Shown here in pieces: positions 36,050 through 56,518 of a DNA stretch of 64,000 bases. The position numbers were made by a program, and so were the translations under genes. This DNA comes from Boswellia sacra (taxonomy: Eukaryota > Streptophyta > Magnoliopsida > Sapindales > Burseraceae). Position 1 is the stretch's first letter. Each line of letters opens with the position of its first letter. The stretch is from the NCBI GenBank assembly GCA_013180625.2, contig SNVD02002607.1, forward strand, positions 62,001 through 126,000, in the 5' to 3' direction. The notes beneath the pieces are model-generated. The model was not told the origin of the DNA. It was given only the letters and a program-made list of their open reading frames with translations, and did no database searches.

Positions 36050-36717
36050 ATGCTCAAAGAAAAATTAGTTTTTCATTTCGTCATACTTGACAGTGTCGAA
36101 ACGGTCAAGTATTAAAGTAATAATATTTGACTGTCAAATAGCTCACATACTTGACGGTCAAAAGCAATCAATGTTCGTAAAGAGTCAAATATTAGCCAAA
36201 ATATTTGTCATACTTGACAGTATCGAAAGGGTCAAGTATTAAAGTAATAATATTTGTCTGTCAAAAGAGTCAAATATTTCTATGCTCACATACTTGACGG
36301 TCAAAAGCAATCAAATATGAAAAAAATTTCGTAAAACTTGACTCTGCACAATACTTGACGGTTATAAGCAGTCAAATTTTGAAAAATTCGACCGTTAGGT
36401 TCATAATATTTGACGGTTACTGTCAAATATTATTAACAAAAATTTTAAAATTTTGACCGTTACTTTGTCATATTTGACAGTTAATGTCAAATATTTCTTC
36501 AATAAACCGTCAAATAAGGCCTAAAATTTGAATCCAAAGGTATACAAACTTGACTGTTTTGTAAGAGTCAAATAATGCTATAGTGAATATTTGACCGTTC
36601 GACCAACGATCAACTATTATCATATTTGACGGTGACATATATGACACGTAAAAAGCGTCAAATATTATCATATTTGACAGCTAAAAACAGTCAAATATTT
36701 ACTTTTTTCTTGTAGTG
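36050..36717 (-). mobile_element. CACTA (En/Spm) transposon terminus with subterminal repeats
   Basis: On the minus strand the block begins CACTACAAGAAAAAAG at 36717, the CACTA terminal repeat. It then carries many direct and inverted copies of a short motif around TATTTGAC/GTCAAATA, spread over about 650 bp. This subterminal array is diagnostic of plant CACTA elements. The outer end abuts Athila DF integrase sequence (next bases TGT on the plus strand). The other terminus was not found. The element may extend left across the captured gene fragments. Confidence 0.8.
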
Positions 36718-37250
36718 TGTAGAAACTTTATGGGTTATTCCATATTTCTTAATTAGAGTTTCAAGTGGTTTGTTACAAAAATGTGTACCTCCATCACTAA
36801 TAATGGCTCGAGGACTTCTAAATCTATACAAGATATTCTCTTTCAAGAATTTGATAATTGTTTTGCGATCATTATTTTGACATTGAATTGCCTCGACCCA
36901 TTTTGAAATATAGTCTACTGCAATAAGAATGTACACAAAACCAAATGATGGTGTGAAAGGTCCCATAAAATCAATACCATAACAGTCAAAAATTTCAACA
37001 ACATGAATGAGATTCAAAGGTATCATATTTTGTTTTGAAATGGAAACCAATTTTGAACAATTTTCACAAGTTTTACAAAATGCATGTGCATATTTAAATA
37101 AGGTGGGCCAATAAAATTCACATTACAAGATTTTAGTAGCTATTTTTTTAGATGAAAAGTGTCCTCCACATGCTTCGGAATGACAAAAATTAATGACACT
37201 ACTTACCTCATTGTCGAGTATGTATCTTCTAATTGTTTGGTCGGAATAAT
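36718..37250 (-). pseudogene. Integrase fragment of element DF
   Basis: It contains the catalytic-core pieces [32 protein letters not shown] and [10 protein letters not shown] (written here in shortened reading), with the first two acidic residues of the DDE triad. The third acidic residue lies beyond the CACTA insertion. Downstream of THKVSTHY the frame runs into CACTA sequence. Confidence 0.75.
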
Positions 37251-37267
37251 ATTTGAACAGATATGGA

Positions 37268-38800
37268 TTATCCTAAAAAAAAAAATTTCACCTTGGACAA
37301 AAACTTCCTTTTGTCTTGAGCACTCCAATGAGGTGGCATTTCTCCTGTTACAAGAAAATTTACAATGTTAGCAAACCATGGTACTACAATAACGGGGAAT
37401 AAAAATTCATCAAGAAAATAGTTATTGATACGTGAAGTCTTAAATGATGCCTCTGTCGTTAATCTTGACAGATGATTTGCAACGCCATTTTCGGCTCCCT
37501 TCTTATCCTTTATTGTGATGTTGAATTCTAAGAGCAATAAGATCCCATGTATCAATCTAGGTTTTGCATCCCGTTTAGACATTAAATGTCTCACAGTTGC
37601 ATGGTCAGTATAAACAATAGTTGGAGAACCAATTAAATAAGATCGAAATTGTCCAATGCAAATACTACTACAATTAGTTCTGTTTTAGTTGTAGTGTAAT
37701 TCATTTGTGCATTGTTTAAAGTTCTACTTGCGTCGTATATTACATAAGGCTTACCTTCTCTTCTTTGTCCTAAGATAGCACCAACTGCATAATCGCTTGC
37801 ATTACACATCAATTCAAAAGGTAAGGACCAATCAAGATATTGCATAATTGGAGTGAATGTTAAAAGTCCAATGAATTTATCCAAAGCATTTTGACATTCT
37901 TGAGTCCATTCAAAAGAAATGTCTTTTGATAATATGTTACAAAGAGGTTTAGATATAGCACTAAAATTTCTTCTAAACCTCCTATAAAATCTAGCATGCC
38001 CTAAGAATGAATGGACCTCTTTGACTGTTTTTGGTGGAGGCAACTGGGAATTAAGTCCACTTTTGCTTTCTCCACTTCAATTTCCTTGGAAGACAACACA
38101 TGACCTACGACAATTCTTGAGGTAACCATATAATGACTTTTTTTTTTTAATTCAAAATAAGACCTTTTTAAGACTTTTTCTAAGTTTTCAAGACAATTAT
38201 TGAAAGAATTTCCAAAGACAGTTAAATCATCTATGAAAACTTTGAAACAATGCTCAACCATATCACTGAAAATGCTTAACATGCATCTTTGAAAAGCGGT
38301 TGGAGGATTACAAAGTCCAAAAGGCATCCTTCTAAATGCAAAAGTGCCAAAGGGGGCATGTGAATGTGGTCTTTTCTTGGTCTTCAAGTGCAATGGGAAT
38401 TTGGTAATAGCCTGAATAGCCATCAAGAAAGCAGTAGTAAGAATGTCCTGCCACTCTGTTTAAAATTTGGTCAAGGAATGGTAAGGGAAAATGGTATTAT
38501 CTAGTGAAAGCATTTAATTTTTTATAGTCAATGCACTCCCTCCAATTAGATGAGATTCGAGTTGGCAATGATTCACCTTTTTCATTTTTTACTACTGTAA
38601 TGCCAAATTTCTTAGGTACTACTTGTGCAAGGCTTACCCACTTACTATCCAAAATAGGGTTGATAATTCCCATATCAAGTAGTTTAGGAACTTCAGCCCT
38701 AATTACCTCTTTCATATGAGGATTTAATCTCCTCTGAGGTCGTTGGGATGTTTTTATGTTTTCTTCTAAATATATTCTATATATACAAATCAAAGGGTTA
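37268..38800 (-). pseudogene. Reverse transcriptase and RNase H of element DF
   Basis: RT pieces include ECIDYKKLNAFTR, FGTFAFRRMPFGLCN and VFIDDLTVFGNSF, where the FIDD box is the catalytic motif. RNase H pieces include [19 protein letters not shown] and [17 protein letters not shown]. The frame is broken at several places (about 38040, 38430-38490, 37600). It matches the corresponding region of element B closely. Confidence 0.8.
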
Positions 38801-40912: not shown

Positions 40913-40917
40913 CCGAG

Positions 40918-42281
40918 TGATGAACACTTAAATATGCATGTTTAATAAGAGTTTAGTTCATCATATTGCATTAATAGTGTCATTAAATTCCTCAACTTAA
41001 GCATATTTGTAGCATTTACATCTTTGGAATTAATTTCTCTTAATTTTGGTTTTGTTACAGGTTCGGTAAAATGGGCATAACTCTCTATTTATAGATTAGA
41101 ATGGTGCAATTCTTAATGTTTTGGAAAGCTGATTCAATTTTATACAAGATTGCATTTCACAAGCATCATCAAATTCGGGCTCTTAGTGGACCAAAATTGG
41201 GCTTGAAGTGAACCCATCTACAGTCTCGACCCAGTCTGACCAAGCTCAGTATTTGGACCGTATCTCTCCAAATACGTATCCAAATTGTGCAAATCAATAT
41301 GTTCTAGAAAGCTGAGAGAAATATCTACAACTTTCATGAAGACATGTGATTAAAATTCACAACAATTCGATGTCAAAATTGATGGTCAAAGTCGGTGCCT
41401 AATGATCCCAATTGTCAAAGATATTTACAACTAATATTTGACAATTATGCCCTTGTAATTTGACAAGTTTGCCCCTGGATGTATCTATAAATAGAGGTGC
41501 CTTGTGACCCATTAGGGCATCTTGGCCTTGGCTGGAACATTTTGGCTTTGGCTAGGATCTTGTATTGTGTTTTGTGTGTTTATGTTATTAATGAATTTCT
41601 TTTTCTTACATTTTATTTTCTTTCTATTATAATGTTCTTCTAATTTCTCTTTTGCTAAGGTGAAAGGGTGAAACCCTTGATATGAGAATAAGGATTCTCT
41701 AACCCTTAATATGTGCTTAATAATCTTAATTTTATAATGTTTATTCAATATGATTTATATTTAATTTCTTAATCAATCTTGACACCACTCGTAAAGTGGA
41801 GGTCTTGATCCATTGTCGACAATCCTTGGCACATCAAATGCTTGGATCCTTTCTAGATGATGTATGGTTCTTCCTTACCGACACGAATCTAGTTAGGAAC
41901 CTTGATTTGTTGTAGACATATGGTGATTGGCACATTGGATGCTTGAACCCATTTACAAGAAGTGGTATAAATATTGGTAACGAAACAAATATAATTCATA
42001 TAACTAAAATGGGTTAATTATCCTTATTCGAAATATCAAGGGCGGATCCCCTAACCTTAGCTTTCATTATTATTGTGTTAATTCCTTTTACTTGCGCATT
42101 TTAATTATTCTCATCCATTGTTGATATTATCTTGTCATATCTTTGAATCATCATATCGTATTTGCTTAGCTTATAATTTGAGCGCTAAAATCTCCTTCCT
42201 CGTGGATCGACCCCGGTCTCACCGGGTTTTATTACTTCGACACTCCTATACTTGGGAGACAATCCTTTTTCGGATGTGTCA
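40918..42281 (+). repeat. 5' LTR of element B (1364 bp)
   Basis: Begins TGATGAACACTTAAATATGC and ends CGGATGTGTCA. It contains a CTATAAATAG TATA-like box near 41485-41494. Confidence 0.9.
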
Positions 42282-42287
42282 AGTTTT

Positions 42288-42305
42288 TGGCGCCGTTGCC
42301 GGGGA
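42288..42305 (+). other. Primer binding site of element B (tRNA-Asp type)
   Basis: TGGCGCCGTTGCCGGGGA, identical to that of element A, 6 bp after the LTR. Confidence 0.88.
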
Positions 42306-42475
42306 AGGTAAAAATTGGCGTGCAAAATTGTAAGTGTTCTCTTTTCTCATTTTAGATCTTAATTTCTTGTGTGTTCACCTTTTCTTCTCTTTCCGTCTCT
42401 CTTCCTTGCATGAAAATTTGATCACGAACATCTAGTGGTAGACTTGTTAGAAAAACATCATCTTCCTTAGATTAC

Positions 42476-44079
42476 ATGGCCGACAATCATGCGGAAATAT
42501 TCACGGATGAAGGGTACAATCGTTCGCAACAAAATGATCAAAACCAACGAAGAACCCTTAGAGACTACATGAATCCGGTAAGGACTAGTGCACCATCTTG
42601 TGTAGTTTCTCCTCCAGATTCAATCCATTTTAATTTCAAACCAAGTTTTGTTCGACTTCTACCCACTTTTCATGGCCTTGACATGGAGAACCCATATTCG
42701 CACTTGAAACTCTTTGAAGAGGTATGTAACTCCTACACTGACCCAAATTGTAGCATAAACACCATTAGATTAAAGCTTTTTCCTTTTTCTTTAAAAGATA
42801 AAGCTAGAACATGGCTACAAAATTTGAGGTCGAATTCCATCAGTTCATGGGATGAGATGAAACAACAATTCTTGAAAAAAATTTTTCCTACCCATAGAAC
42901 AAATTCTCTTAAAAGACAAATTTCTGATTTCTCTCAAAAACAAGGGGAAACCCTTTACCAATGTTGGGATAGGTATAAGGAACTACTTAATACCTGTCCT
43001 CACCATGGTTTTGAGACTTGGAGAGTAGTTGCACACTTCTAGGAAGGGTTAACACCTCAAGATAGGCAACTAGTGGAATTAATGTGTAATGGAGAATTTA
43101 AAGAAAAGACCTCTGAGGAAGCACTTGACTTCCTAGATCCTTGGCAGAAAAAAGGCACAAATTGGGACAATTGCTGGGGGGGACACCTATGGGTACCTAG
43201 GCAAGGCCCCAACCTCGACATCCAATAGAGGCATTACAACCTTAGGGAAGACCATGACCTTCAAGCCAAATTTGCATCCCTAGCTAGAAAAGCGAGGCTT
43301 TAGAGATGAAAAAGAGGTGGTCAATTGAACATCGATTCAAAAAAATGTCTTAAAACATATGTGAGACAATGACCATTATACGATGATTGCCCAACTTTGC
43401 CTGCCTTTAGGGAATGTCTCCATGAAGAAGCCAATGCCTTAAACACTTGCAAAAGGCCAAATCACAATCCATATTCACAAACCTACAATCCTGGTTGGAG
43501 AAATCATCAAAATTTTAGCTGGAAAAATGACAAACATGCACAATCTTCACAAGTCCCTTTTCAAGCACAACAAAATTTTCAAAATTCTCATGATCATGAA
43601 TATGCTCCTCCTCATAGGAATGACCTTCAAGAAACATTGCATTCATTCATTACAAAGCAAGAGACTTTCAATAGCCAAACTGCTCAAACATTAGCAAATT
43701 TGTCAGAAACTCTTGCAAAATTTGCATCTACATTTAGTATCCAAGAGAAAGGAAAATTTCCTTCTCAGACATTGCAAAACCCCAAAGATCAATCTAACTC
43801 AAATGCAGGGAGTTCAAGTAACCATTATTTTGACCAAGCCAAGTCAGTCATGACCCTTCGCAATGGTAAGATTATTGAAAAACATATTCCTAACCCTTGT
43901 GAGAAAGAAGAAGAATCGATCTCTAAAAGGCAGGAAGAGGTTTCCAAACCAACACCTAGCGAAGAGGAAACCAAATCCTCATCTGTGCCTCCATTTCCTC
44001 AAGCATTAGCCACACAAAGAAGCCAACTCACAATTCTGAAATCTTTGAAATTTTCAAACAGGTAAAGGTCAACATTCCC
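42476..44079 (+). pseudogene. gag of element B
   Basis: From the ATG at 42476 (MADNHAEIFTDE) the Retrotrans_gag capsid region is open: FNFKPSFVRLLPTFHGLD, KDKARTWLQNLRSNSISSWD, QISDFSQKQGETLYQCWDRYKELL. A TAG at 43040-43042 (tyrosine in element DF) and further lesions to about 43390 break it. A second open stretch (43397-44065) encodes LPAFRECLHEEANALNT and the NPYSQTYNPGWRNHQNFSW motif. The zinc-knuckle region between is degraded. A frameshift near 44065 separates gag from protease. Confidence 0.82.
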
Positions 44080-44520
44080 TTGCTTGATGTGATCAAACAG
44101 GTACCTTCTTATGCAAAGTTTTTGAAAGACTTGTGCACTGTGAAAAAAAAACTAAATGTGAAAAAGAAGGCCTTTCTAGCCGAGCAAGTAAGTGTTATTC
44201 TTCAAAATAATAATACAGTGAAATATAAGGATCCAGGTTGTCCTACAATTTCATGTGTTATTGGAGACCATAAGATTGAACAAGCTTTACTTGATCTTGG
44301 TGCTAGTGTGAATTTGCTTCCATACTCGGTTTTTCAAAAACTCAATCTAAGTGAGTTAAAACCAACTTCGGTGACTCTTTTGCTTGCTGATAGATCAATT
44401 AAAGTACCAAGAGGAGTAGTAGAAGATGTATTAGTTCAAGTCGATAAATTCATTTACCCAGTGGATTTTATCGTCTTGGACACACAACCAGTGGAAGTAA
44501 GCAATTAAATTCCTGTTATT
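44080..44520 (+). pseudogene. Aspartic protease of element B
   Basis: It carries the Athila-type protease motif LLDLGASVNLLPYSVFQKLNL, with the catalytic aspartate codon at about 44293, and LLLADRSIKVPRGVVEDVLV. The DLGAS active-site motif is intact here, unlike element A. The frame ends at a TAA near 44506, short of the usual GRPFLATA segment, which is found shifted at about 44520-44545. Confidence 0.75.
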
Positions 44521-44599: not shown

Positions 44600-45977
44600 A
44601 ACATGACATTGCGAACTTAATGTTCAATATGTGCAAACAACCAAATGAAGAAGAAGATGAAGTTGATAAAGCCAATGTAATTGAATCTATTGTGGAAGAT
44701 CACATCCAAAAGGGAGTTCTTCTGACCCTTTGGAAACTTCTCTAGTGAATTCATTAGAATCAAGCATGGAACTAGAGTCTGATTTTTCTGATATATGCTC
44801 TTTATTGGATTGTGCACAGGTGATGGAAAAATGCTCAAAATCAAGATTTGAAGAATTGGGGCAAATGAATGAAAGCAAGGAAGATGAAGCTCCCAAGTTA
44901 GAATTGAAGTCCTTACCTGAAGGACTGAAATATGCTTATCTTGGGGAGAATCAGACATATCCGGTGGTAATTTCTTCATCCCTCACATGCGAGCAACAAG
45001 GTAAGTTGATAGAAGTACTTAAAAGGCATAAAAATGCAATTGGGTGGACTTTAAAAGATATAAAAGGCATTAACACTTTAATTTGCACAAATAGAATACA
45101 TTTAGAGGAAAATGCCAAAACATCTCAACAACCTCAAAGGAGATTAAATCCACATATGAAAGAGGTCATTAGGGCTGAAGTTCTCAAACTACTTGATGTG
45201 GGAATATCTATCCTATTTCTGATAGTAAATGGGTAAGCCCTACACAAGTAGTGCCAAAAAAATCTGGCATTACAGTTGTTAAAAATGAAAAGGGGGAATC
45301 ATTGCCAACTCGTGTCTCATCTAGTTGGAGGATGTGCATTGATTATAGAAAATTAAATGCTATCACTAGAAAAGACCATTTTCCCTTACCTTTCCTTGAC
45401 CAAATTCTTGAAAGAGTAGCAGGACACCCCTACTACTGCTTTTTTGATGGATACTCAGGCTATTATCAAATTCTCATTGCACTCGAAGACCAAGAAAAGA
45501 CCACATTCACGTGCCCCTTTGGCACTTTTGCATTTAGGAGAATGCCTTTTGGACTTTGTAATGCTCCAGCTACTTTTGAAAGATGCATGCTAAGCATTTT
45601 TAGTGACATGGTCGAGCATTGTTTAGAAGTTTTCATGGATGATTTAACGGTCTTTGGAAACTCTTTTGATAATTGTCTTGAAAACTTAGAAAAAGTCCTA
45701 CGAAGGTGTGTAGAAAAAGGTCTTATTTTGAATTGGGAAAAGTCATTATATGGTTTCACTTCGAGCCATTGTCTTAGGTTATGTGGTGTCTTCTAAGGGA
45801 ATTGAAGTGGACAAAGCAAAAGTGGAATTAATTTCCCAGCTGCCTCCACCAAAAACAGTTAAAGAGGTTCGTTCATTTTTAGGGCATGCTGGATTTTATA
45901 GGAGGTTCATAAGAAATTTTAGTGCTATATCTAAACCTCTTTGTAACCTCTTAATAAAAGATACTTCCTTTGAATAG
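44600..45977 (+). pseudogene. Reverse transcriptase region of element B
   Basis: The acidic linker (44730-45236) is followed by RT: WRMCIDYRKLNAITRKDHFP, GYSGYYQILIALEDQEKTTF, FGTFAFRRMPFGLCNAPATF and FMDDLTVFGNSFDNCL, whose FMDD box holds the catalytic aspartates. Frameshifts lie near 45235-45251 and 45750-45770. A TAG at 45975-45977 replaces a tryptophan codon at the RT/RNase H border. Confidence 0.85.
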
Positions 45978-46037: not shown

Positions 46038-47788
46038 ATGCAATCTCCTGATTGGTCCTTGCCTTTTGAATTGATGTGTGATGCAAGCGACTATGCAGTT
46101 GGTGCTGTCTTAGGAAAAAGAAAAGAAGGTAAGCCTTATGTGATATACTATGCAAGTAGGACTTTAAATGATGCACAAATGAATTATACAACAACTGAAA
46201 AAGAACTACTTACAATAGTATTTACATTAGACAAATTTCGATCGTATTTAATTGATTCTCCCACGATTGTTTACACTGACCATGCAGCTATAAGATATTT
46301 AATGCCTAAACAGGATGCAAAACCTAGATTGATACGGTGGATCTTATTGCTCCAAGAATTTAACATCATAATAAAGGATAAGAAAAGAGCTGAAAATGTC
46401 GTTGTAGATCATCTTTCAAGACTAACGACAGAGACATTAATTGAAACTTCACCTATCAATGATTCTTTTCCTGAAGAATTTTTATTTTCTGTTGCTACTG
46501 TACCTTGGTTTGCTAACATTGTAAATTTTCTTGCGACAGGGAAAATGCCACCTCATTGGAATGCTCAAGACAAAAGAAAATTTTTAACCAAGGTGAAAAA
46601 TTTTTACTGGGATGACCCATATCTGTTCAAATATTGTCCAGACCAAATAATGAGAAGATGCATACCCGACAATGAGGTAAGTAGGGTCATTAACTTTTGT
46701 CATTCTGAAGCATGTGGAGGACATTTTTCATCTAGAAAAACAGCTGTTAAGATCTTACAATATGGATTTTATTGGCCCACCTTATTTAAAGATGCACATG
46801 CATTTTGCAAAACGTGTGAAAATTGTCAAAAATTGGGATCTATTTCAAAAAGAAACATGATGCCGTTGAATCCCATTCTTGTCGTTGAAATCTTTGACTG
46901 TTGGGGTATTGATTTTATGGGACCTTTTCCACCATCATTTGGTTTTGTGTACATCCTTGTTGCAGTAGATTATGTTTCAAAATGGGTCGAGGCAATTCCA
47001 TGTCAAAACAATGATCACAAAACAGTTGTCAAATTTTTGAAAGAGAATATCTTAAGTAGATTTGGAATTCCTCGAGCCATTATTAGTGATGGGGGTACAC
47101 ATTTTTGTAACAAAACATTTGAAACTATAATGAAGAAATATGGAATAACCCATAAAATTTCTACACCTTATCACCCACAAACAAGGGGACAAGTTGAATT
47201 AGCTAATAGGGAGATAAAACAGATCTTAGAAAAAACGGTTAAACCAAATCGTAAAGATTGGTCTTTAAGACTTAGTGATGCACTTTGGGCTTACCGAACT
47301 GCTTTTAAAACATCATTAGGAATGTCTCCTTATAGACTAGTTTATGGAAAACCTTGTCACTTGCCTGTGAAAATTGAGCATAAAGCTTATTGGGCCATTA
47401 AAACATTCAACACAAATTTGAATAGTGTTTGCAAATTACGTAAATTTCAACTGAGTGAACTTGAAGAAATCAGGAATGAGGCTTATGAAAATTCTAAAAT
47501 CTGCAAAGAAAAAATGAAGGTTTTTCATGACAAATCCATTGTTAGAAATCTTTTGAACCTTCACAAAAAGTTTTTTTGTATGATTCAAGATTGCATTTGT
47601 TTCCTGGTAAACTTCGGTCTCGTTGGACTGGGCCTTTCATTGTAAAAAATGTTTTCCCTCATGGAGCAATTGAAATTGAAAACCCAAAGAATGGTAATGT
47701 GTTTAAAGTTAATGGACAACGGTTAAAACCATTCTTTGAAAATTTTGACAAAAACGAAGAGTCCATTGCTTTAATTGATCCTTTTTAA
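46038..47788 (+). pseudogene. RNase H and integrase of element B
   Basis: A long open frame starts with the RNase H pieces [20 protein letters not shown] and [10 protein letters not shown]. The integrase follows, with a zinc-binding region ([21 protein letters not shown]) and a DDE core ([36 protein letters not shown]). Then comes [19 protein letters not shown]. One frameshift near 47570 moves the C-terminal part ([20 protein letters not shown]) to the frame ending at 47788. The catalytic residues are present, so only a few lesions separate it from an intact enzyme. Confidence 0.88.
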
Positions 47789-47913
47789 GGATTGATTTTC
47801 CCGGTCAAGTGGCGGATACGGTACTCCGTGGCTTTTAAAGTCGGTTTTTTAGTTCCCTAAAAACTGTTGCTCACCTTGCATCCATTTTCTTTTCTTCTCT
47901 CTCATTTTCTCAC

Positions 47914-48469
47914 ATGGATACCAATTCTCTCAAAAATTGCACAAAAAATTGCCCTTCTTCCCCAAAAGATTTGCCTTAAAATTATAAAGCTGTCTCTTAG
48001 TGCAGAAAGACTAAGGTTATTGATGCGTAAGGGTATTCCTGCCGATTTAAGATGGTTAATTGAAGCCAAGGTTCGATTCTCTTGTGAGTTTTCAGATAAT
48101 CTTGTTTACCATATGCCAAGTTTGGAAAAAAGCTCTTATGCTAAAAAGAGAAGAGCAAAAAGGTTACAAGTTTGTCACAAATGTGCAAGATGGACTTGTA
48201 ACCAGCGTTGCCGCTCTTTGGGATATTTGTCTAACAATCGAGAGGATAAGCTACAGTTCATCAAGGATGGACTGAGTAAGGAGTCCTTGGATGATATCCG
48301 AGTGACTCTTGAGACGCATTCTTGTGGACTTGTGCAGCGTGAAATTTTTAATTTGTGGACACAATTCCGAGATGAGCAGGAACGCTATAGTCTTGGGAAT
48401 CTGACTCAAAACGACCCTGTTTGCCAGTTTATAAGAAAACTGGATGGGAAGCATATCCCCAACTCATAG
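47914..48469 (+). CDS. Post-pol Cys-rich reading frame of element B
   Basis: An open frame of about 150-180 residues lies 100-130 bp after pol. It reads LSAERLRLLMRKGIPADLRW, SCEFSDNLVYHMPSLEKSS, a basic KKRRAKRLQ stretch, and CHKCARWTCNQRC (cysteines spaced C-x2-C-x4-C-x3-C, about 48174-48215), ending DGKHIPNS. It looks like a small zinc-binding protein. The N-terminus is uncertain: an ATG at 47914 opens another frame (MDTNSLKN) that stops early, which suggests a frameshift near 47970-48000. Athila-group elements often carry an extra frame after pol, sometimes called env-like, but I see no signal peptide or convincing membrane anchor. Its function is not known. Confidence 0.55.
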
Positions 48470-48783
48470 AAGGTGTTTAAGCCGTTTCTGGACGTAAAAC
48501 CAGAGGAAGATGTGAGCCACAGTCACAACTACCTGTACATATGCATGCGTGCCATCATTTTTGAATTTTAATACCTCATAGCTGTCATTTTTGAATTTGT
48601 ATCTTTTGTTTGACTTATGTGTCTTATTTCATCATCTTTTGAATTTTTGTGCATTATTGTCAACTTTTTCAACAAACAATCGAGCTACCTAGATAGATAT
48701 CATCATTAGCATACCTTTTTGCACCCCATAAATACCACATGTCTTGTTCTCTTCTTCACACATAGTTAGAGAGTTACATAGAC
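48470..48783 (+). promoter_or_regulatory. Leader and possible core promoter of the LOG gene
   Basis: A T-rich stretch with repeated ATTTTTGAATTTT units is followed by CCCCATAAATACC (about 48724-48736), a TATA-like box. It lies about 50 bp before the LOG start codon and 30-45 bp before a likely transcript start in TTCTTCACACATAG. It resembles a normal plant core promoter, which would be unexpected if only an mRNA was captured. Inference from sequence only. Confidence 0.4.
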
Positions 48784-49434
48784 ATGGAGGGAACTTCAAA
48801 ACGTCGAATCCAAAGGATATGTGTATTCTGTGGATCTCGACCAGGTAAAAGTGAAGAGTTCGTAGAAGTAGCGAATTATCTTGGTAGGCTACTGGCTGAA
48901 AGAAAGATTCATGTGGTTTATGGGGGAGGTAGCCTCGGGTTAATGGGTTGTGTGTCAACAGCTGCACATGTAGGGGGTACTCAAGTTTTAGGAGTTATTC
49001 CTAAAGCTTTGGCTGTAGAAAGTATTGTTGGAAAAACGGTTGGGAAGGAGTTACAGGTCTCCTCTATGCATGAACGCATGGCACATATGCCCATCAATTC
49101 AGATGCCTTTATTGCTTTACCAGGTGGCTTTGGCACTCTTGAAGAAATTTTTCAAATTGCCTCTTGGGCCCAACTGAATCTCCATAAAAAACCCATAGGT
49201 TTGTTGAATGTTAAAAATTTCTTTGATCCTTTGATAAGTTTTGTCGATGCAGCTGTGAAACAAAATTTTATCCCTCATTCAGCGAGAAAGATCCTTGTTT
49301 CTACCACTTCTACTGGTGAGTTACTTGACAAATTACAAGAAGTTGAGTATGAACCTGACCCAGCTAGTACTCAAATTAATTGGGCAGGAGGGCAAAACAA
49401 AAAGTGCAAATTGGATCTGAATCTCCGTTTATAA
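48784..49434 (+). CDS. LOG-like: Intronless LOG-like cytokinin riboside 5'-monophosphate phosphoribohydrolase inside element B
   Basis: It is a complete 216-codon frame from ATG at 48784 (sequence ACATAGACATGG) to TAA at 49432. LOG enzymes release the active free-base cytokinin from its nucleotide in the cytosol. Motifs visible are FCGS (15-18), VVYGGGSLGLMG (44-55), SMHERMAHM with the catalytic arginine R98 (94-102), and PGGFGTLEE with the catalytic glutamate E121 (113-121). WAQLNLHKKPIGLLNV (128-143) follows. Length matches plant LOGs (about 210-220). The SMHERMAHM form, with M after the arginine where classical LOGs have K, marks a LOG-like side branch. The C-terminus LDLNLRL (210-216) fits the LxLxL EAR pattern. 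Plant LOG genes normally have several introns and this one has none. It sits between pol and the 3' LTR, in the same strand as the element. No stop or frameshift is present although gag and pol are broken. Confidence 0.93.
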   Translation: MEGTSKRRIQRICVFCGSRPGKSEEFVEVANYLGRLLAERKIHVVYGGGSLGLMGCVSTAAHVGGTQVLGVIPKALAVESIVGKTVGKELQVSSMHERMAHMPINSDAFIALPGGFGTLEEIFQIASWAQLNLHKKPIGLLNVKNFFDPLISFVDAAVKQNFIPHSARKILVSTTSTGELLDKLQEVEYEPDPASTQINWAGGQNKKCKLDLNLRL

Positions 49435-50768
49435 TTTTTCTCTTGTCCTTTATTTTATTTTATTTTAGCATGTTATTTTATGAGTCTTTCAGGTCATCTC
49501 TCTTGAATAACAGACGCTTCAGGTAATATCTCCTATACTTTATCTCTCTACATTTAAACATTGAGGACAATGTTTCATTTGGTTGGGGGGGAAGGATAGT
49601 AGACATAAGTGTGTCTTGAAATTTATTTTTTTTTGCAAAAAAAAAAAAGGCGAGTTAGTAATTAGATTCAAAGTACGGTGTAAGGAGTTCAAATCCTCTT
49701 GAGACGCATTCTGGGTCAGGAATGGCAGAGTATGGAGGGCCAGTTTGAACTCTTGAAACCCATTCTAACCAATTTGTCATTTTATTTTGATCTTGTGCAC
49801 TCATTTAGCTAACTTGATATTATTTAGTCTTGATTTTTGAATTTTATAACAAGGGGGTCTTATTCATTTCACTTTGAATTATTCAAATCTATGAACTCTC
49901 ACAACCTTATCATTTAAAAATTGTGTGCTTATGTACTCATTAAACAAGTATTCATGAACCTTTCTTCACACACACACACATACCTTGATGCATGATTGTG
50001 GATGGCAAAATGAAATGTTGTAATATTGAGTTCTTTTGTTTTGTTTAGGATAACAACACAAAGGAAGGGGAAAGTTAAAAAAAAAGTGAAAAAAAAAGTG
50101 AAAAAAAAAAAGAAGAGAAGAGAGCAATTGTGGATAATTTGGTCTCGTAGCCTCCTTAATTCGAGCAATTAAGCCCGAGGGGTGCCTCAACACCTAATAC
50201 CCTAAGACCAACTGGTTTGGGAGCTCTTGGCCCAAAGCTCGCTACATGGATTAAGGAGAAAGCTTAATGGGATTGAACATTGCACTATCCACAAGTTTCT
50301 AAGCAAAAATAAAGTATCGGCAACCCGAGTCGTTAAGCTCGTAGGGGTGTCTTAACACCTAATGCCCTAAGGCAACTGGTATGGGAGTCATTAGCCTAAG
50401 GCTCGCTACATGGGTTAAAGATGCATTCCTTCAAAAAAAAAAAAAGAGAGAAAAAAAAAATATATATATATAAAATGAATAAATGCCCCTTACCCAAGGT
50501 TGTTAGCCTTAACAAATATTAGAACCGATATGACTTCTTTCTAATAAGCCCCATAATCATGTGTTGACTAAGCACAAAAAGAAGGTTTATTGATATCTTG
50601 ACTAAAGGGTACGTGAGTCATAAAAAAAAAATCAGTTGAGAGTTTGTTTATTTGGATAAAATCAAGGAGAGTGCAATAATGAACACCTTGGATGTAAAAT
50701 TATATAAATCACTTCTAAATAATAACGCTTTAATTGCTAGGGACTAGCAATAAGCTGGTTGGGGGGTG
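49435..50768 (+). other. Noncoding 3' region of element B with internal duplication
   Basis: No gene. It holds a TTGAGGACAATG...TTGGTTGGGGGGG motif (about 49561-49590), usual in the 3' noncoding region of Athila-like elements. A diverged tandem pair at about 50165-50270 and 50325-50415 shares CACCTAAT.CCCTAAG, CAACTGGT and GCTCGCTACATGG. Poly(A) and TA runs are present. A G-rich tract GGTTGGGGGGTG at 50757-50768 serves as the polypurine tract. Confidence 0.7.
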
Positions 50769-52117
50769 TGATGAATACTTAAATATGTATGTTTAATAAG
50801 ATCTTAGTTCATCATATTGCATTAATAGTGTCATTAAATTCCTCAACTTAAGCATCTTTGGAATTAACTTCCTCTTAATTTTGGTTTTGTTACAGGTTCG
50901 GTAAAATGGGCATAACTCTCTATTTATAGATCAGAATGGTGCAATTATTAATGTTTTGGAAAGCTGATTTAATTGTCTACAAGATTTCATTTCACAAGCA
51001 TCATCAAATTCGGGCTCTTAGTGGACCAAAATTGGGCTTGAAGTGAACCCATCTACAGTCTCGGCCCAGTCTGACTAGGCCTCCGTATTTGGACCGTATC
51101 TCTCAAAATACGTATCCAAATTGTGCAAATCAATATGTTCTAGAAAGCTGAGAGAAATATCTACAACTTTCATGAAGACATGTTATTAAAATTCACAACA
51201 TTTCGATGTCAAAATTGATGGTCAAAGTCGGTGCCTAATGATCCCAATTGTCAAAGATATTTACAACTAATATTTGACAATTATGCCCTTGTAATTTGAC
51301 AAGTTTGCCCCTGGATGTATCTATAAATAGAGGTGCCTTGTGACCCATTAGGGCATCTTGGCCTTGGCTGGAACATTTTGGCTTTGGCTAGGATCTTGTA
51401 TTGTGTTTTGTGTGTTTATGTTATTAATGAATTTTCTTTTTCTTGCATTTTATTTTCTTTCTATTATAATGTTCTTCTAATTTCTCTTTTGCTAAGGTGA
51501 AAGGGTGAAACCCTTGATATGAGAATAAGGATTCTCTAACCCTTAATATGTGCTTAATAATCTTATCTTATAATGTTTATTCAATATGATTTATATTTAA
51601 TTTCTTAATCAATCTTGACACCACTCGTAAAGTGGAGGTCTTGATCCATTGTCGACAATCTTTGGCACATCAAATGCTTGGATCCTTTCTAGATGATGTA
51701 TGGTTCTTCCTTACCGACACGAATCTAGTTAGGAACCTTGATTTGTTGTAGACATATGATGATTGGCACATTGGATGCTTGAACCCATTTACAAGAAGTG
51801 GTATAAATATTGGTAATGAAACAAATATAATTCATATAACTAAAATGGGTTAATTATCCTTATTTGAAATATCAAGGGCGGATCCCCTAACCTTAGCTTT
51901 CATTATTATTGTGTTAATTCCTTTTACTTGCGCATTTTAATTATTCTCATCCATTGTTGATATTATCTTGTCATATCTTTGAATCATCATATCGTATTTG
52001 CTTAGCTTATAATTTGAGCGCTAAAATCTCCTTCCTCGTGGATCGACCCCGGTCTCACTGGGTTTTATTACTTCGACACTCCTATACTTGGGAGACAATC
52101 CTTTTTCGGATGTGTCA
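50769..52117 (+). repeat. 3' LTR of element B (1349 bp)
   Basis: Begins TGATGAATACTTAAATATG and ends CGGATGTGTCA. It lacks about 15 bp found near 40998 of the 5' LTR and is otherwise nearly identical by eye. Confidence 0.9.
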
Positions 52118-52122
52118 CCGAG

Positions 52123-54999: not shown

Positions 55000-55156
55000 T
55001 GTCACTAGCTTAGAGGTTTGCGCAGCTGCTCGTGCGACACTTAGGCAACTTGACTCCAAAAGTTACTAAGTAAGCCTTGATGCTAGTCTTCTTGCTCAAG
55101 GAGAAGAGAGGATCGTTGAGCCGAAGAGCCTGTAGGCAAAGAAGAGAAGAGATGGA
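55000..55156 (-). repeat. Truncated 5' LTR of element E
   Basis: Only the 157 bp next to the primer site remain, matching 39514-39670. The outer 350 bp are lost, together with the adjoining part of DF gag/protease. Confidence 0.8.
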
Positions 55157-56344
55157 TTCACCTTCTTTCTCATAAGGTTTAAGAATGTGTTTTTCGACAA
55201 TCTTACCATTGCGAAGGATCATGACTGATTTCGCTTGGTCCACATAATGGCTATTTGAACTACCTGCACTTGAGTTAGATTGATCTTTGGGGTTTTGCAA
55301 TGTTTGAGAAGGAAATTTTCCTTTTCCTTGGATGCTAAATGTAGATGCAAATTTTGCAAGAGTGTCTGACAAATTTGCTAATGTTTGAGTAGTTTGACTA
55401 TTGAAAGTCTCTTGCTTTGTAATGAATTAATGCAATGTTTCTTTAAGGTCCTTCCTAGGAGGAGGAACATATGCATGCTCATGAAAATTTTGAAAATTTT
55501 GATGTGTTTGAAAAGGGACTAGTGAAGATTGGGCATGATTGTCATTTTTTCAACTAAAATTCGGATGATTTCTCTAACCAGGATTGTTGATTTGTGAGTA
55601 TGGATTGTGAATTGGCCTTTTGAAAGTGTTTAAGGCATTGGCTTGTTCACGGAGACATTCTCTAAAAGCAGGCAAAGTTAGGCAATCATCAATAGAATGA
55701 TCATTAGCATTACAAATGTAGCAAACAATTTCTTGAATAGAATTCAATTGTCCACTCTTTTTCATTTCTCAAGGCTCGACTTTTCTGGCTAGGGATACAT
55801 ATTTGGCTTGAAGGTCATATTCTTCCATAAGGTTATATATGCCTCTATTGGATGTCAAGGGTGGGGCTTTGCCTGGTACCTCATAGGTGCCAGCAATGTC
55901 TCAATTTTGGGCCTTTTTTGCTAATGAGTCTAGGTAGTCAATTGCTTCCTCAGGGTCTTTATCACCAAATTGTCTGTTACATATTAGCTCTACTAGTTGC
56001 CTATCTTGAGGTGCTAAACCTTCATAGAAGTGTGCAACTAATCTCCAAGTTTCAAAACTATAGTGAGGACAGGTATTAAGTAATGAAGGAGTACATATGT
56101 TTTCAAAGTTTTTTAAGTGTGAATATGGGTTCTCCATATCAAGGCCATGAAAGGTGGGTAAAAGTCGAATGAAACTTGGCTTGAAATTGAAATGGATTGC
56201 ATCGGGATGAGAAACTACACAAGAAGGTGCAGTAGTCCTTACCGAATTCATGTAATCTTTGAGGGTTCTTGGTGGGTTTTGGTCATTTTGTTGGAAACGA
56301 TTATCCCATTCATCTGTGAACCTTACCACTTGATTGTCAGCCAT
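55157..56344 (-). pseudogene. gag of Athila-like element DF
   Basis: ATG at 56344-56342 opens MADNQVVRFTDEWDN, homologous to the gag of element B. FNFKPSFIRLLPTFHGLD is followed by an internal deletion of the capsid core (NICTPSLLNTCPHYSFETW). Then come YICNANDHSIDDCLTLPAFREC, with a partial CCHC knuckle, and ILRNGKIVEKH before the frame reaches element E. Several stops are present. Position 55901-56344 lacks the stop that breaks the same place in element B. Confidence 0.78.
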
Positions 56345-56518
56345 GTTTTCTAGGGAAGATGATGTTTTCCTAACAAGTCTACCACTAGATGTGCATGACC
56401 AAATTTTCATGCAATTTTAAAAGAGAAAAAGAAAGAAAAAGATGAGCACACAACAAAAAAATTAAGATCTAAAATGAGAAAAAGGAATATTTACAATTTT
56501 CCATGCCAAATTTTAACT

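Follow-up and report, generated by a model that had tools for sequence, protein, structure and literature searches.

A probable two-gene accessory cassette, a virus-like nucleic-acid-binding protein relative and a LOG enzyme with an EAR-like tail, in an Athila-like Ty3/gypsy lineage of eudicots

Plants silence transposons, and transduced host genes are known in plant long terminal repeat (LTR) elements. Such cases amount to one or a few copies in the passages of PMC11963269 that treat them. Closer to our subject, the YgdH domain, which is found in LOG proteins, has been reported in gypsy consensus sequences of Citrus sinensis and C. clementina and, under a laxer filter, of Populus trichocarpa (Alvarado-Marchena et al. 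2022, PMC9289625), in agreement with Steinbauerova et al. 2011, as cited there. The relevant section of the same screen describes another host-type enzyme, an AlkB/2-ODD m6A demethylase, as an accessory open reading frame (ORF) of Phalaenopsis gypsy elements, in one orchid genus and with no mention of a virus-like partner (PMC9289625). Here, we analyze a Ty3/gypsy element that carries a LOG gene in a 64,000-nucleotide stretch of the Boswellia sacra genome, referred to below as the window (contig SNVD02002607.1; C1297:62001-126000 within the 638.6-Mb host assembly). A preliminary description of this window had placed LOG inside an LTR element, which we confirm as an intron-less, intact ORF of 216 codons between integrase and the 3' LTR; it had also known of no described LTR family of this kind, a statement contradicted by the reports from Citrus and Populus (PMC9289625).

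The Boswellia elements resemble those YgdH elements in having a LOG-family domain within a gypsy LTR element, and proteins from Populus group with the Boswellia LOGs in one clade; section 12 of that source (PMC9289625) gives a domain hit, without position, selection, tail, partner gene, or forms lacking pol, and Steinbauerova et al. 2011 may say more. We consider it probable that an Athila-like Ty3/gypsy lineage of eudicots carries, between integrase and the 3' LTR, an old and selected cassette of two accessory genes, one for a relative of viral nucleic-acid-binding proteins (NABP-like) and one for a LOG with an EAR-like C-terminal tail. What can be read directly from sequence is the position of the cassette, its mobility in many copies, the adjacency of the two genes, purifying selection on both, the intact LOG active site, the single clade of sampled element LOGs, the tail, and retention of the pair in copies lacking pol.

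In the open PMC literature, searches combining LOG or YgdH with retrotransposons returned no other report pertinent by title or passage, those combining NABP or silencing suppressors with retrotransposons returned none pertinent by title, and those for EAR motifs in viral proteins returned none. The NABP-like partner, the EAR-like tail (the combination of LOG with EAR was not itself searched), and pol-less copies keeping the pair appear to be new. A census from 2019 set a minimum of 250 codons for extra ORFs (PMC6317226) and would, at that threshold, have missed ORFs of 216 and 182 codons.

Copies, constraint, and age of the capture

Two families in the host genome together account for at least 300 LOG matches. 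With the window LOG as query, we scored the best 150 of 14493 first-look candidates, which were 93-100% identical to it (family 1); all 150 span at least LOG residues 1-213 or 2-215, and 126 are stop-free by count of rows. The C-terminal half of Arabidopsis LOG3 as query yielded 150 further loci, 148 of them stop-free in the half searched. Both tables hold best-scoring candidates, which biases them toward intact copies, and they have 7 contigs in common, at different positions. Thirty fetched loci of the LOG3-query table belong to a second family, with LOG pieces about 54-71% (mostly 64-70%) identical to family 1. A search for other LOG-bearing copies had been proposed as a check on the locus; the hundreds found mark a shared family and rule out a one-off insertion or an assembly join. 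Neither the copy number nor the constraint described below is that of a one-off transduced gene.

The second accessory ORF, which the preliminary description mentioned no more than it did the EAR-like tail, adjoins LOG on its 5' side, between integrase and LOG (47867-48469). Directly upstream of LOG, 29 of 30 family-1 loci and 28 of 30 family-2 loci carry an NABP-like piece (of just 27 residues in two of the former), so that a whole or partial copy stands beside LOG at 57 of the 60 loci inspected. Strictly intact NABP frames number 11 among the 30 family-1 loci and 5 among the 30 of family 2.

Purifying selection is evident in the codons of both LOG and NABP. Between families, intact ORFs give a dN/dS of 0.186 at a dS of 1.22 for LOG (28 versus 19 copies) and of 0.201 at a dS of 1.03 for NABP (11 versus 5 copies). 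Differences at codon positions 1/2/3 are 0.26/0.16/0.44 for LOG and 0.25/0.16/0.38 for NABP, and the excess at third positions points to protein-level constraint. A further estimate came from family-1 copies chosen by their 3' non-coding flank (40 matches of 1887 candidates; 20 of the best 23 fetched and 19 usable, L088 being dropped because it ends at a contig edge), a sample that leaves out the window copy, L020, and C53:21116 (LOG stop-free). LOG dN/dS in these 19 copies is 0.267 (bootstrap 0.229-0.314); with the window copy and L020 added it is 0.264, and the LOG frame is open in 8 of the 21. Because the flank-chosen ratio includes post-insertion mutations, constraint on active copies is probably stronger than 0.267. 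The selection on LOG suggested in the preliminary description is thus upheld by both ratios, which round to 0.19 and 0.27. We set aside a first dN/dS of 0.137 (30 copies), for which copies had been ranked by protein identity; the within-family values for LOG (0.143 and 0.157) and NABP (0.234 and 0.165) carry the same bias.

Most copies decay: 5 of the 19 flank-chosen LOGs have neither stop nor gap relative to the window copy (L076, with a 10-base gap, is not counted as intact), and 6 have an open ATG-to-stop frame together with PGGxGTxxE. In the window copy, gag and pol are spread over several frames and LOG is whole, as the preliminary description had noted; that pattern does not extend to the family, in which LOG is intact in 5 or 6 of 19 copies.

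Supply of reverse transcriptase (RT) in trans is commonplace; it is less usual for a copy to keep NABP and LOG in cis. Upstream of LOG, 15 of 30 family-1 loci have the end of integrase, 11 have gag-end sequence instead, and 4 are unclear; NABP is intact in 5 of the 15 integrase-bearing loci and in 6 of the 11 in which integrase is replaced. In all three family-2 upstream stretches fetched, the frames look gag/protease-like by eye, and neither RT nor integrase gives a match. One of them, C3725:115425-124638 (minus strand, ends read by eye), is a complete family-2 element with target site duplication (TSD) AAGAT, both NABP and LOG intact, and a primer site of the same type as that in the window, with mismatches; its LTRs differ in 25 of 1248 columns and in 10 of 384 in a partly overlapping part, about 2%. 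Retention in cis in pol-less copies suggests that NABP and LOG act for the copy that bears them. In pol-less family-1 copies (L062, C1119:1085959-1089058), a gag-end peptide (..SLLDFVQVKE..) replaces integrase, and these form a non-autonomous subfamily.

Protein homologues were sought with LOG, the NABP ORF, and LOG3 as queries. Of 77 proteins placed in one tree, 56 are element-like and 21 canonical (LOG3- and LOG8-type only), and all 56 element LOGs fall on one side of a single branch with support of 100/100; in a second tree, with 18 of the element LOGs retained and three LOG8-side genes of the host and two LOGs from bacteria added, all 18 do so with support of 100/99. A long stem leads to this clade, in which Malvaceae, Populus, and Melia are represented by name, and because the sampled element LOGs form one such clade, we take the capture to be old. 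A recent capture, as the preliminary description proposed, is contradicted by the same observations and rejected on both trees. Its proposal of an mRNA-derived, intron-less copy fares better: three LOG-like genes of the host have their exons as separate pieces, and the element copy is uninterrupted. Sixteen host places with a last-exon-like match (73-92%) end at the same residue, although some may be allelic. Separate host exons and one old clade together indicate an ancient, mRNA-based origin of the element LOG. The long element stem and the distant bacterial outgroup limit what the trees say about the donor LOG subfamily.

Two Populus models annotated as plant LOG ("LOGL10," P0066 and P0085) fall in the element clade. 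Two long Xanthoceras predictions (P0001 and P0002), top matches of the element LOG that lack the tail, were left out of the tree.

The element in the window and its proteins

The features of the window element are as follows, in window coordinates.

40913..40917, no strand: TSD CCGAG, left copy (sequence and LTR alignment)
40918..42281, plus strand: 5' LTR, TG...CA (direct repeats, alignment)
42288..42305, plus strand: primer binding site TGGCGCCGTTGCCGGGGA (read from sequence)
42305..42336, plus strand: two donor-like GT sites just 3' of the primer binding site, candidate splice donors (read from sequence)
42476..44062, plus strand: gag, interrupted (Retrotrans_gag in first piece, E 1.5e-19)
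44080..44505, plus strand: aspartic protease piece (Asp_protease_2, E 9.2e-6)
45251..45793, plus strand: RT piece (RVT_1, E 4.1e-27)
46038..47642, plus strand: RNase H and integrase (Pfam RT_RNaseH, Integrase_H2C2, rve)
47867..48469, plus strand: second accessory ORF, Viral_NABP/Carla_C4-like, basic and Cys-rich (Pfam)
48757..48771, plus strand: acceptor-like CACACATAG/TTAGAG directly 5' of the LOG start, putative function (read from sequence)
48784..49434, plus strand: LOG (cytokinin riboside 5'-monophosphate phosphoribohydrolase family), 216 amino acids, intact (ORF, Pfam, structure)
49399..49431, plus strand: LOG C-terminal tail KKCKLDLNLRL, a basic run and LxLxL, EAR-like (sequence)
50757..50768, plus strand: G-rich, polypurine-tract-like stretch before the 3' LTR (sequence)
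50769..52117, plus strand: 3' LTR (direct repeats, alignment)
52118..52122, no strand: TSD CCGAG, right copy (sequence)

The TG..CA LTRs, the 5-bp TSD, the primer binding site, and the order protease-RT-RNase H-integrase identify a Ty3/gypsy element. As the preliminary description stated, the LTRs match (98% identity) and CCGAG stands at both ends. The LTR pair is identical at 1322 of 1347 positions (the alignment took in one base beyond the LTRs), for a Kimura two-parameter distance of 0.019, which presumably corresponds to about 0.7-1.3 million years at rates of 1.3e-8 to 7e-9. We take the primer binding site TGGCGCCGTTGCCGGGGA to be of tRNA-Asp type; the Athila clade is expected to have one other than tRNA-Met. 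No second RNase H or chromodomain is among the Pfam matches of the pol pieces. This domain content fits an Athila-like placement; as far as the description in PMC6317226 goes, the Athila clade (OTA, non-chromovirus) has neither aRH nor chromodomain. Elsewhere in the window, a second, related gypsy element is represented at positions 36712-37845 (minus strand) by integrase/RNase H pieces, which are about 72-78% identical to their counterparts in the LOG element, and positions 55010-56410 (minus strand) hold ORFs that by eye resemble the LOG element's gag, from a further related copy or fragment.

The window LOG matches Pfam Lysine_decarbox at E 1e-37 (129.7 bits, cut-off 27). Its closest solved structure by sequence is 2a33, Arabidopsis At2g37210 (E 1.1e-60), and its predicted fold matches 2a33_B (E 3.2e-22, rmsd 1.3). 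The catalytic arginine and PGGxGTxxE glutamate reported in the preliminary description are both present, and these residues, Arg98 and Glu121, are invariant in 44 of 44 aligned sequences; with the Lysine_decarbox fold, they identify a type-I LOG phosphoribohydrolase. Family membership and the invariance of both residues lead us to predict, with good confidence, catalytic activity of the element LOG and release of cytokinin bases. Canonical plant LOGs (LOG3 and LOG8 types) have the fold, PGGxGTxxE, and Arg98 in common with it but differ in sequence (LOG3-type proteins are 45-49% identical to the window LOG), in the introns of the three host genes, in falling in a separate clade, and in the C-terminal LxLxL, which none of 120 LOG3-type proteins has.

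The motif LxLxL is an EAR motif, able to recruit TOPLESS, and the window LOG ends in LDLNLRL, which conforms to the sequence definition of such motifs (LxLxL or DLNxxP). Within the last 15 residues, LxLxL occurs in 96 of 120 listed element-like LOGs versus 0 of 120 listed LOG3-type proteins, 97 of which are of ordinary length and 6 of which have LxLxL elsewhere. By reading, the 24 tail-less element-like LOGs comprise 13 that are cut short, 7 with one residue changed, 1 with an altered end, and 3 long Xanthoceras predictions. In the structure model, the tail has low confidence and appears disordered, so it is probably flexible. A C-terminal EAR motif is in use in the downy-mildew effector HaRxL21, according to the part of PMC7446885 that treats it; the element LOG has a C-terminal LxLxL as such effectors do, but it is an enzyme of an endogenous element, and any binding to TOPLESS is putative. 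That the tail binds TOPLESS-type corepressors has, in our estimate, slightly less than an even chance.

The Viral_NABP and Carla_C4 families comprise Cys-rich nucleic-acid-binding proteins of filamentous plant viruses and are described as silencing suppressors in the portion of PMC8839810 that bears on them, where the Cys-rich protein of chrysanthemum virus B is also linked to a host cell-proliferation factor. The window ORF scores E 4.8e-7 for Viral_NABP (above cut-off) and E 4.3e-4 for Carla_C4 (just below); its N-terminal part is out of frame, and the ORF is intact elsewhere, as in L010:637-1182, whose 182 amino acids score above both curated cut-offs (Viral_NABP E 1.2e-7, Carla_C4 1.1e-6). 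Five of eight scanned homologues (P0121, P0231, P0144, P0153, and P0190) reach the cut-off of at least one model. A basic run followed by CxxC is found in 104 of 121 NABP-like sequences and CX2CX4CX3C in 103 of 121. The basic run directly before the Cys cluster is as in the NABPs/suppressors of carla-, allexi-, viti-, and trichoviruses (PF05515, PF01623), from which the element ORF differs in being retrotransposon-encoded and, relative to the carlavirus CX2CX12CX4C given in PMC8839810, in Cys spacing. The structure model is of moderate confidence (pLDDT 72, pTM 0.34); among the first 8 of its 26 viral Foldseek matches, the name RNA silencing suppressor occurs 4 times, nucleic-acid-binding twice, and "15kDa protein" once, and one match is nameless. 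A search for relatives in viral contigs gave 9 pattern stretches, none confirmed. By analogy with the carlavirus Cys-rich proteins, we give even odds to nucleic acid binding by the protein together with a weakening of RNA silencing or a change in host transcription.

We found 339 NABP homologues, and names among the 120 listed include Populus, Xanthoceras, Acer, Rhamnella, and Orobanche. The Orobanche (parasitic asterid) members are P0231, P0233, P0234, and P0239, and one cluster has 109 members. In Rhamnella rubrinervis, the single prediction P0213 combines LOG sequence with an NABP-like part; it and P0197 are element ORFs in public plant gene models, by LOG fusion or RT-domain name.

Spliced mRNAs are known in env-bearing elements. 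Donor-like sites follow the primer binding site (..AAG/GTAAAA at 42308 and ..ATT/GTAAGT at 42330, both candidates), and an acceptor-like motif precedes the LOG start in 45 of 47 intact-LOG copies from the two families. These site-like motifs make a weak case that LOG is expressed from a spliced subgenomic RNA. A TATA promoter of LOG's own was considered and rejected: a TATA-like box, present in the 5 family-1 copies compared, has no evident counterpart in the 6 of family 2.

Possible roles of the cassette and rival explanations

If the pair acts as its sequence suggests, LOG would raise local cytokinin by freeing cytokinin bases, the NABP-like protein would bind nucleic acid and lower RNA silencing or shift host transcription, and the LOG tail would engage TOPLESS-type corepressors. 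Under the influence of the cassette, the cell with the element, and its daughter cells, would go on dividing and be less able to silence the element, which would be likelier to reach the germ line. We hold only tentatively that NABP and LOG together favor division, reduced silencing, and germ-line access to the benefit of the element in cis; such a benefit would explain why copies borrowing RT from others keep the cassette. Comparably tentative is a virus-like selfish agent whose suppressor and TOPLESS-tethered hormone enzyme would steer the carrier cell toward division and away from silencing, with selection acting in cis at the level of the cell lineage, such that even RT-less copies would keep the cassette. 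An element of that sort would amount to a transposon that manipulates hormones.

Several observations weigh against a selected effector cassette. The majority of flank-chosen copies are broken (14 of 19, or 13 of 19 by the open-frame criterion). In copies without RT, the presence of the cassette could in part stem from recent deletion or recombination. Three of the eight scanned NABP homologues (P0167, P0239, and P0213) reach neither Pfam cut-off; the Cys spacing, CX2CX4CX3C, is not the longer CX2CX12CX4C of carlaviruses, for which reason we call the ORF a relative rather than a member of the carlavirus type. Matches of the NABP model to viral folds fall short of significance (best E 0.15) and count as no more than a hint, and the protein has no PDB match by sequence or by fold. 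In the relevant passage of PMC7446885, ten LxLxL effectors were tested without TOPLESS binding; as the motif alone is not sufficient, binding by the LOG tail is put forward as a hypothesis.

Among other explanations, the one we take most seriously, although we think it unlikely, gives LOG a non-enzymatic role, for example as a nucleotide-binding scaffold that would bring TOPLESS to element or host chromatin through the EAR-like tail. The basic and LxLxL tail of 96 of 120 proteins, probably flexible in the model, and the basic run before the Cys cluster of the partner ORF (104 of 121) would suit such a scaffold, but a pure scaffold need not keep Arg98, Glu121, and the PGGxGT loop, which are invariant or nearly so. 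That LOG is instead a passenger, picked up through chance transduction and borne by an otherwise autonomous element to which it is useless, is very unlikely: host-gene transduction has precedent and 14 of 19 flank-chosen copies are broken, yet the dN/dS of 0.19 at dS 1.2 between families and of 0.27 in the flank-chosen sample contradict it, as do the active site invariant in 44 sequences, the clade across Malvaceae, Populus, and Melia, and retention without RT and integrase.

Domestication, with the cassette serving the host as a reservoir of LOG copies, draws on the fact that ordinary LOG is a host-beneficial enzyme; the NABP-like ORF beside LOG in 57 of 60 copies, the coexistence of intron-bearing host LOGs, and the numerous copies, many of them decaying, make it highly improbable. 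We give least credence of all to a cis signal, in which the 3' region would be kept as DNA for packaging, splicing, or promoter function and the ORFs would be incidental. Retention of the region in RT-less derivatives and the acceptor-like motif in 45 of 47 copies are compatible with it, but it is disfavored by the codon pattern, third positions being the most divergent in both genes, and by greater difference in the spacer (0.041) and the 3' flank (0.034) than in LOG (0.018), as measured in 27 of 30 loci, although these had been ranked by LOG identity.

To our knowledge, and as a view formed without a search of the literature, transposons, unlike pathogens, are not generally credited with manipulating host hormones. 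The preferred reading, a selected relative of viral suppressors together with a LOG that bears a TOPLESS-type motif, makes element action on the cell cycle and on germ-line access testable. Gene annotation is affected as well, given hundreds of additional LOG frames in a single genome, and host LOG counts may be inflated.
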